From assembly GCF_000013725.1 (NCBI RefSeq), contig NC_007955.1, forward strand, positions 1,457,579 to 1,521,578: DNA of 64,000 nucleotides, read 5' to 3'. The DNA is from Methanococcoides burtonii DSM 6242. GTDB lineage: Archaea; Halobacteriota; Methanosarcinia; Methanosarcinales; Methanosarcinaceae. The position numbers and the translations under genes were made by a program. Every line of letters starts with the position of its first letter. Position 1 is the stretch's first letter. Shown piece after piece: positions 2,427-57,693 of the stretch. Below the pieces are notes generated by a model. It was not told where the DNA came from and did not search any database. It saw nothing but the letters and a program-made list of their open reading frames with translations.

Positions 2427-3917
2427 TTATAAGCTAGCTCTGAACGCAGCATCTGCCTTGTCTACTACAGCCTTCATGTCTGCTAAGAGTTCGCTGTCGA
2501 TTGCCTTGACTTCATGGTTCTTCATTATGTCAAGAAGCTTCTCGTGTGCAACTACTGAGAGATCTTTTGAACCTGCAGCTTCCCAGTCACCGAACATGTC
2601 CCTGTCAATGAGTTCTGGGTTAGATACGAGATGGATATTTTCCCTGGTTTCTTTGTGTGCAAGGAAGTTGTTGCCGATTCCGACCTTCTGGATGGATGGT
2701 ACAGCAAGTGTCTCGTCTGATACAGGGACGCCACGCATCGCGGACCGTGTCATATTGATGATGTCAGCGTCGATTACAAACTGATCCAGGGAGAATGTCA
2801 TACCGAGCTCGAGCATACCTCCACCGTAGATGGTGTTACATCCGGCGAATGCTGGAAGGAGGGTTGTCATTGTCTTCTCGTGGCCTGACTGTGTATCTGG
2901 GACCTTTGAATCTGACTAAGTACCTGCGACATAGGTTGGAAGGCCATAGAACTGACCCATCTTACCGACTGCAGCGCTGATAATACCAAGTTCTGGAGCA
3001 CCGACCGGAGCTGTTCCTTTTCTCAAGTCGAAGGTTGTGGTTGAGCTACCGTACCATACTTCAGCACCTGGCTGAACGAGCTGTGCAAGTACAATACCTG
3101 CGAGAACCTCTGCGTTGTGTGTAACGAGTGTACCTGCCCTGAATACTGGGGAGGAACCACCGGACATTGCCATACTCAGGACATTCACTGGCATACCGAA
3201 GCGTGCACCCTTCATGATGACCTGACATGCGTTGACACTGAGCTCGAGTGGGCTGGTTGGGCAAACAAGCATGGACATGATTGGCCTCTTGCGTGCTGCT
3301 TCAGAGTCACCACCATAGTATGCGTCGACAATTCCCTTGTAGTACTCTACATTCTCACCAACAGGGTCGATGTGGTGGAAGTGTTTGGTAGTGTTCATGA
3401 GAGGTGTGAGGGTCTCGTGGACATCCTGTGCTCCCTTCCCTGCCCAGTCCCTTGCGGAAACGGTAAGAGCCATGTAGCTGAATTCATCGAGGTAGTCACA
3501 GACTTTTGCGGTATCTGCAATGTCCTGCTCAACAGAGTCAACTGTCTGATACTTGCCTGGTGCGACGTAGTTACACATCTTGACACCAGTACCGAAAGGT
3601 ATGTAGTGGACCTTACCCTTGTGCTCCTGTTCCATGGTGTTCTTCTTGTCACGACCATAAAGCATGAACCTTGAAGGTGCGTCGAAAAGTGCCCTGTTCA
3701 CGACGTACTCAGGAATTTTTACAATTTGTGATGCCTCGTCGACTTCACAGCCACCTTCCTTGAAGATTGCCCTTGCTTCCGGATCAGATACCTGAACACC
3801 AGGGTTAAGGAAAACTTCCATTGAAGCGTAGTGGATAGCTCTGAGGTCATCTTCGGAGAACAACTCTAACTGTACACCCTGAAGTGGGAATCTAGCTGCG
3901 TAATTAGGTTCTGACAT
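2427..3917 (-). CDS. mttB: Trimethylamine methyltransferase MttB, pyrrolysine-containing
   Basis: This enzyme demethylates trimethylamine and transfers the methyl to MttC. The frame is 497 codons, with an in-frame TAG at 2916-2918 (CTA on the plus strand) as codon 334 and a TAA stop at 2427. The flanking sequence (PTYVAGT before, SDSKVPDTQ after) and the N-terminus [14 protein letters not shown] match the MttB family, in which this TAG is known to be read as pyrrolysine at the active site. An ordinary ORF finder splits it in two (2916-3917 and 2427-2870). It is first in the operon, ahead of mttC and mttP, behind a long leader. The window therefore comes from a genome that must also encode PylT and PylS, which are not in this window. 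Confidence 0.96.
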
Positions 3918-54925: not shown

Positions 54926-56050
54926 ATGAGCTTTACCAATATTGCAGGCACCATAAAAGAAGTGCCAAAACCGATCGAAAGGAAGAGAACGACCTTTGAT
55001 GATATCAAAAAAATTGCGACTAAAACTAAAAGGGTAATGTACCCAATTTCGGGAATTGTGGGACAGGAAATGATGCTTCGGGCATTGATACTGAATGCCA
55101 TTAATCCATCCATCGGAGGAGTTCTGGTACGAGGTCAGAAAGGAACGGCAAAATCAACCGCAGTGAGAGGATTAGCAGAGATCTTGCCGGATATTGAAGT
55201 AATAGATGGATGCCAATACAACTGTGACCCGCTTGACCCAAACACTTTCTGCTGGGAATGTGTGGACAAACAGAGAAAGGGCCAGATAAAGGTAGAAAAA
55301 ATACCGATGAAAGTTGTAGACCTTCCAGTAGGAGCTACTGAGGACAGAGTTGTTGGAAGTCTCGATATTGAGAAAGCTGTAAAGGAAGGTACACAGGCAT
55401 TTGAACCGGGTATTCTTGCCAATGCAAATAGAAATATCCTTTATGTGGATGAGATCAACCTTCTGGATGATTTTGTAGTGGATGCATTGCTTGATGCTGC
55501 TGCAATGAACGTAAATACGGTGGAAAGAGAAGGTATAAGTGTCAGCCACCCTGCCAATTTCATTATCGTAGGTAGCATGAACCCGGAGGAAGGAGAACTT
55601 CGACCACAGCTTCTTGACAGAATAGCCCTTCAGGTCGAAGTAGAGGGAATTACCGATATTGAGCAAAGGGTAGAGATCATTGAAAGAAGGAACAAATTCA
55701 ATGATGACCCACAAGGATTCAGAAGGGATTTTGAATCTGAACAGGATAAGTTGCGTACCAAGATAATCAAAGCAAAACAGGCTATCGCCAGAATATCCGC
55801 AACAAGAGATAATCTGCGAACAATTGCGAAAATATGTGTCGCTTTCAATGTTGATGGTCATAGAGCCGATATTATGATAGAGCGTACTGCACGCACAAAT
55901 GCAGCCTATGAAGGCAGAGAAAGGATCACCAACGAGGATATCATAGAGGCCGCAGAGATGGTACTGCCTCATAGAATGAGAAAGAAACCATTCGAGGAAG
56001 AGGAGTTCAGTGCGGAACAACTTCGGGCTGTAGTTAACGGAACTGTATAA
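54926..56050 (+). CDS. Magnesium-chelatase-type AAA ATPase (ChlI/BchI family)
   Basis: A 374-residue AAA+ motor that works with a VWA-domain partner to put metal into a tetrapyrrole. Walker [10 protein letters not shown] (about residue 69), Walker [11 protein letters not shown], sensor [18 protein letters not shown]. The [17 protein letters not shown] stretch is the Cys-containing insert of the family. Methanogens lack chlorophyll; such genes are thought to serve cobalt or nickel insertion, but no CobN-type subunit is adjacent. GAGGGG precedes the ATG. Confidence 0.9.
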
Positions 56051-56064
56051 GACAGGTATATCGA

Positions 56065-57693
56065 ATGAAGGATGGAGTTACTGCATTTCGTTTGAGAAAA
56101 AGCCTTGACAGAAACTATGATGTCGGGGTATTCAATCCAGGCAGACCTGTAATGGGTATTCGCCTGCCCCTTACAGAACTATCTCAGATAAGTGGAACCG
56201 ATACCAAAGCAGTTCATGAAAAGCTCACATCGGGAACATGGTCGATACAACCGGAAGATGTGAAAGAGATATTTATTATAGCTGATAACGACCATGTGAT
56301 AGTTGATCCGAAGAATTTCTTCGATTCATTTAAGAAAGAGTCAGAGATGGAAACGGTCTTAGAGGAAGAACAGGAATTTTCCAGGAATGATGACCATGCT
56401 ATTATGAAGATAACTGTTCCTGAGAAAATTGCCAAGCAAGGGGTCAATGGGCCTGTAGAGGAGGCAATCGATGAGATAGAGGTCCATCTTGTTCCAAAGG
56501 AATATAAACCAAAGATCGAATCCGGTCCTAAACGGATAAAGAAAGAAACTCCCATACTTATCAAAAAGAACAAGCAGACCGTGGTAGCGGATATCCCCAG
56601 ACCAAGGGAAGAGATTCCACAGATAATTCCAGAGGAAAGGCATAATTTGGGATTACAGGAACCAGAAGAGAAAGTATATAACACTCCGATAATCGAAGAA
56701 TCTGCCCCGGTTTTTGAGACAGGAAAAGATACTGCTGAATGTGAAAGGGAACAGGATGGTGTTTCTGAAAATATACCAAAAACAGAACTAAAGACAAAAG
56801 CAAAGCCTGAAAAAGATGACCCCCTCGAAGATGAGAAAGCGGTAAGCAAGATACTTACGGATTTTGCAAAGAACAAGCAGAAGAAGAAGGTCGTTTCCGG
56901 AAGGTTGAAATCGGGAAGACGGGCGGAGGTTCTCACCAAGGGTAAGAGAGGGCGATATGTCAGATATAAGATGCCAGAAGATAAGATAACAGATATCGCC
57001 ATTGCGCCCACTGTGCGTGCAGCAGCATACCACGCCAAGGACGGGAAGATACGCATTAAAAAGAGCGATATCAGGGAAAAGATAAGGCGACGAAGAATAT
57101 CCACGCTTATAAATATCGTTTTTGATACTTCCGATTCGATGGATGAAAAAGAGAAGATCAAGATCACCACAGATGTTGTTCTCGCACTTCTCAAAGATGC
57201 ATACCAGAGAAGAGACAGAGTATCTCTTGTCACATATAACGGAAGATAGGCAGAACTCGTGCTACCGTTCACTTCGTCAGTGGAGTCTGCAAAGAGATAT
57301 CTGGAAAAGGTACCTTTTGGGGGAACCACACCAATGGCCTCAGGAATACTGACAGGAGTTCAGACCATCCTTCAGGAATTGAAGCGCGAACCTTCGGCTG
57401 TTCCTATTATGATACTCGTGACAGATGGTACTGTCAACGTCCCATTGAATCGTGGCGGAAGCATAGAAAGGGAACTGCTACAGGTATGCAAGGGTGTTAC
57501 TGATTACAGGATAAACATGCTTGTTGTAGATATCAGTAGAAATGGAAGTGAGCTTGCGGAAAAGCTGGCAGATGTTGCCTGTGGTAAATATTACCATCCA
57601 GTACTTTTAAGTAAAGAAACACTTTATTCTGCTATAAAAGGAGAGCGTGACGATTTGACAGATATTACATCTTCTGCCTCCAATCTTCGATGA
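56065..57693 (+). CDS. VWA-domain chelatase partner (ChlD-like) with in-frame amber (candidate pyrrolysine) codon
   Basis: The frame is 543 codons with one TAG at 57247-57249 (codon 395) and a TGA stop. Before it: an N-terminal region without AAA domain, a charged linker (about 90-250), and a VWA domain start (ISTLINIVFDTSDSMDEKEK, MIDAS motif DxSxS). After it: AELVLPFTSSVESAKRYLEKVPFGGTTPMASGIL and VTDGTVNVPL, the rest of the same VWA domain. In ChlD proteins this place reads like F-R-G-x-x-AELLLP, so TAG replaces one variable residue next to conserved AEL.LP. No frameshift is needed. Starts 15 bases after the ATPase gene. Without readthrough the VWA domain would be cut in half. Confidence 0.87.

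Follow-up and report, generated by a model that had tools for sequence, protein, structure and literature searches.

A single in-frame TAG in a VWA-domain gene of Methanococcoides burtonii, probably read as pyrrolysine, among scattered TAG codons in conserved genes of the genus

The locus described here raises the question of whether an amber codon within a VWA-domain gene of Methanococcoides burtonii is translated and, if so, whether the inserted pyrrolysine is of any consequence for the protein. The window, i.e. the whole analysed stretch of 64,000 nucleotides, carries this gene as part of an AAA+/VWA pair (Table 1), and the original prediction had regarded it as a chelatase subunit, as a candidate new pyrrolysine protein and, by extension, as a point at which cofactor supply might depend on pyrrolysine. 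Analysis of the reading frame confirmed one continuous frame consisting of ATG, 394 sense codons, TAG, 147 sense codons and TGA, with the TAG at codon 395 as its sole interruption. The Pfam VWA_2 match covers residues 351–455 and crosses the TAG, while the alignment of orthologues with the host gene showed no indels on either side of codon 395; the proposed VWA sequence on both sides and the absence of a frameshift were thus borne out. Together with the evidence presented below, we conclude that the TAG is very probably decoded as pyrrolysine, and that it arose recently, as a probably neutral change at a position that tolerates substitution. A literature search found no report on this VWA gene with its TAG at codon 395.

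Table 1. Coordinates of the VWA gene, its surroundings and further TAG-containing genes of the host.
Feature	Coordinates	Strand	Remarks
mttB, trimethylamine methyltransferase	2430..3917	-	known pyrrolysine gene, positive control; in-frame TAG at 2916-2918
ChlI-like AAA+ ATPase gene	54926..56050	+	14 bases upstream of the VWA gene, paired with it in relatives
VWA-domain gene	56065..57693	+	second of the AAA+/VWA pair; 542 residues if TAG is one residue
In-frame TAG, codon 395	57247..57249	+	TCG (Ser) in the three nearest congeners
147 codons past the TAG	57250..57690	+	second half of VWA and C-terminus, under purifying selection
DP1, DNA polymerase D small subunit	L060:3705-5420, G000:C1:1823705-1825420	+	TAG at codon 397
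HerA-like ATPase	L059:17748-19031	+	TAG at codon 350, Ser in relatives
430-residue protein, family unknown	L047:4243-5532	-	TAG at codon 151

The host genome, a single closed contig of 2,575,032 bases that lies closest, among named genomes, to Methanococcoides MAGs and to M. alaskense DSM 17273, encodes PylS, and a tRNA-Pyl with a CTA anticodon (GATCATGTAGATCGAACGGACTCTAAATCCTTTCAG) was located upstream of pylS. Both components that a pyrrolysine protein demands of its host are present, and in the VWA gene itself the lone in-frame TAG is flanked on either side by constrained coding sequence, as would be expected of such a protein. The claim that the host uses a pyrrolysine TAG in mttB within the same window was upheld by an NCBIfam trimeth_pyl match of 689 bits and by an Rfam PYLIS_3 element beginning at the mttB TAG. 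The Rfam search matched this mttB element alone, with no PYLIS after the VWA TAG, and folding of the sequence following the VWA TAG revealed no unusual structure (z-score 0.06). PYLIS has been reported not to be essential (PMC2933860), and a special read-through signal is not needed for the decoding of UAG as pyrrolysine (PMC2933860, PMC8211752).

Alignment of 26 orthologues (L002–L027), the partial orthologue L028 and the more distant L029 and L030 revealed a sense codon at position 395 in every relative. In the three nearest congeners a single C>A change separates the serine codon from TAG; elsewhere the position holds Ser, Ala, Glu, Thr or, in one related family, Lys (six relatives carry lysine), and the column ranks within the 14 most variable of the 126 columns of the VWA region. 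In mtmB, mtbB and mttB, whose in-frame TAG codons share host and decoding machinery with the VWA gene, pyrrolysine is catalytic and the TAG is conserved at its position throughout the family; in contrast, the VWA site is variable, with serine in relatives, and no PYLIS match follows it. As the site is variable and the nearest relatives carry serine, nothing suggests that pyrrolysine is needed at codon 395. In an alignment with the VWA structure of BchD (PDB 2X31), a homologous domain, codon 395 falls at a hairpin turn between two strands; this placement rests on that alignment and on known VWA topology, because the predicted structure of the gene itself, obtained with four near-identical sequences, was poor (mean pLDDT 34). 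A search of viral contigs found no relatives of the VWA gene.

Comparison of the host with three congeners yielded dN/dS values of 0.039–0.075 past the TAG versus 0.046–0.062 just before it (residues 277–394). On the host branch, the part of the gene past the TAG accumulated 19 synonymous and 3 amino-acid changes (the TAG itself excluded), all 88 otherwise invariant columns between residues 277 and 530 are kept, and neither frameshifts nor further stops occur past codon 395, so that the downstream decay looked for was not found. As the VWA TAG is unique to one genome, this pattern of selection could predate the TAG if the latter is very young. The gene might be a young pseudogene whose TAG terminates translation, leaving a 394-residue product with an incomplete VWA domain and a decay that has just begun. 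We regard this as unlikely: the nonsense change is confined to one species and several relatives live without the gene, as a pseudogene would suggest, whereas the absence of a second lesion, the strong constraint on both sides and the unchanged invariant columns argue against it, and the host must read TAG in mttB and evidently also in the single-copy DP1 gene discussed below. Moreover, all congeners examined have kept the gene; an apparent loss in one genome (G009) was rejected, as the contig ends inside the gene and the gene start is still visible.

In the pyrrolysine reading that we prefer, a C>A change would have converted the serine codon TCG to TAG in the lineage of the host Methanococcoides, and ribosomes supplied by tRNA-Pyl and PylS would decode UAG as pyrrolysine to afford the full-length VWA protein. 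Pyl-tRNA-Pyl would compete with a release factor, of which the host encodes one (an eRF1_3-domain protein of 420 aa), and some termination at the VWA TAG would be expected; since this factor is present and a TAG ends pylB, part of the VWA product may indeed terminate. The bulky lysine derivative would probably be tolerated in the turn that links VWA strands 2 and 3, because this position is occupied by Ser, Ala, Glu, Thr or Lys in relatives. The TAG would then most likely be neutral, as one of several such codons that have drifted into conserved Methanococcoides genes, and amber cases of such kind were described as neutral drift in a 2013 study (PMC3639795). Decoding, its efficiency and its neutrality are thereby predicted from sequence comparison, and as a prediction the candidate pyrrolysine protein is well supported by the host machinery, the downstream constraint, the lack of a second lesion and the TAG codons inside other conserved genes, including DP1.

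A regulatory role, in which selection would have favoured the TAG as a means of coupling full-length AAA+/VWA activity to pyrrolysine and hence methylamine supply, appears very unlikely. Pyrrolysine supply does respond to the growth substrate in certain organisms (Acetohalobium, cited in PMC8211752), but the TAG at codon 395 occurs in one genome only, at a variable site without a conserved signal, and comparable scattered TAG codons are found in unrelated genes. The production of two polypeptides, a truncated protein and a C-terminal fragment from an internal start such as the GTG at 57259, four codons past the TAG, is hardly credible: no convincing ribosome-binding site lies upstream of this GTG, the break would fall inside the VWA sheet between strands 2 and 3, and all relatives are single-chain proteins.

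To place the VWA gene in its genomic setting, TAG use was sampled on 464 kb of the host, comprising the window and 20 further stretches. Only 14 of 377 long ORFs (about 4%) end in TAG, and an in-frame continuation of at least 60 codons follows 7 of these 14 compared with 40 of the 363 ORFs ending in TAA or TGA (Fisher p = 0.0005); in ten control ORFs joined across TAA or TGA, no Pfam domain clearly spanned the stop. Among the TAG-containing genes is that of DP1, for which 11 Methanococcoides genomes gave a single strong match each. Codon 397 is TAG in the host, in G008 and in M. alaskense (G002) and CAG (Gln) in other congeners, while G001 has a TAG at a different site. The three genomes with the shared TAG show dN/dS values of 0.02–0.05 among one another past this codon, at dS values of 0.20–0.38. 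The shared codon may go back to a single early change that later reverted in places, or to parallel changes. PolD is essential in Euryarchaeota, and these cells would therefore be expected to depend on sense decoding of TAG, in DP1 at the least. A sequencing error in the reference, conceivable for a VWA TAG known from a single genome, is thus scarcely to be expected, as the same-site DP1 TAG in three separate genomes indicates that in-frame TAG codons genuinely occur in the genus, and the host genome is one closed contig.

Further TAG codons were found in a HerA-like ATPase gene, the G002 orthologue of which has its own TAG at another position, and in the gene of a 430-residue protein, for which a full-length, stop-free homologue was detected in G037 and none in six other Methanococcoides. 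As with DP1, the TAG of each of these two genes is spanned by matches to protein families or to relatives. CobN of another Methanococcoides (G004) likewise contains an in-frame TAG (L095, G004:C5:591000-595000, minus strand). Two candidates were discarded: a TAG ORF at L065:9467-10081 is most likely rRNA, with three near-identical copies and 86% conservation across families, and a 587-codon TAG-ended ORF in L052 was set aside as too divergent to be informative. On balance, we lean slightly towards the view that Methanococcoides is on the way to using TAG as a regular pyrrolysine sense codon, including in an essential DNA polymerase subunit, with the VWA gene as one of the set; growth may then need pyrrolysine. 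Some TAG codons may nevertheless act as stops, since pylB keeps a TAG at its usual terminus across the genus.

The suggested function as a chelatase subunit stood up in part. The AAA+ and VWA genes match the N- and C-terminal halves, respectively, of TIGR02442 ('putative cobaltochelatase'), as a split pair would, but the cut-offs for chelatase D subunits were missed (209.9 versus 779.45 bits for TIGR02442, 149.1 versus 499.55 bits for TIGR02031), and the VWA gene is not a full-length ChlD or CobT. Unlike the fused or full-length BchD/ChlD subunits, which have an AAA domain of their own, the host proteins are encoded by separate genes. Other lineages possess a fused ChlID of 650–780 residues near CobN (e.g. 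G004, G016). Every Methanococcoides examined carries the pair, as do some other genera, while many related methanogens lack a copy; its conserved neighbours in congeners are LarE-like, HPT, Dph2, methyltransferase, Csl4 and SepCysS genes. Co-occurrence with CobN, as expected of a CobN partner, was not observed: the pair is found without CobN in G012, G021 (only 76% complete), G037, G040 and G048, and CobN without the pair in seven genomes (G014, G015, G017–G020, G023). Given this mismatch and the absence of the pair from many methanogens, it does not belong to the general machinery for making F430 or corrinoids. Every methanogen produces F430, and the nickel of this cofactor is inserted by CfbA without ChlI/ChlD. 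The proposed dependence of cofactor supply on pyrrolysine therefore finds no support, as the site is variable with serine in the nearest relatives and the pair neither tracks CobN nor is generally present.

The nearest precedent for the VWA TAG is Thg1 (tRNA-His guanylyltransferase) of Methanosarcina acetivorans, likewise a housekeeping-type non-methyltransferase gene that gained a TAG in one species, in which pyrrolysine is not needed for activity (PMC2933860). Read-through of Thg1 was demonstrated by experiment, whereas it is predicted for the VWA gene; an amber codon introduced into a reporter gene gave 20–30% read-through (PMC2933860). The predicted read-through CobN of M. acetivorans is likewise a chelatase-related case, in which differing residues of homologues align with the TAG (PMC1242214, figure 4c), although CobN is the large subunit and the VWA gene encodes a split ChlD-like protein. 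The G004 CobN TAG echoes this predicted case (PMC1242214).

Read-through of scattered TAG codons in pyl-bearing archaea is already known in principle. Kivenson et al. (Science 2025) reportedly described archaea with a 'Pyl code' that assigns pyrrolysine to every TAG codon, and the VWA gene may already be included there; the pattern seen here resembles this code in that TAG appears to serve as sense across many genes and rarely as stop. Taken alone, the VWA TAG is one more likely neutral pyrrolysine site, and its value lies in the setting of the genus. Since three species share a TAG in a replication gene that is single-copy and presumably essential, Methanococcoides offers a direct test of UAG as a sense codon, and the DP1 setting also bears on whether pyrrolysine is needed beyond methylamine use. 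Codon reassignment may begin by single changes from serine and glutamine codons at tolerant sites, and if TAG is indeed becoming a sense codon, growth itself, not methylamine use alone, may depend on pyrrolysine.

Two further observations were made. A 2164-residue frame at L058:2376-8867 (minus strand) combines VWA and CBM96 domains with a single TAG after codon 892 and is possibly a giant pyrrolysine surface protein. In addition, pylB (L063:6250-7362, minus strand; loci L031–L042) terminates with TAG in every Methanococcoides examined as well as in two other genera; in Methanococcoides this TAG is followed by a 42-codon in-frame extension overlapping the start of the next ORF (pylC position), and the terminal TAG is a possible feedback point for pyrrolysine supply.
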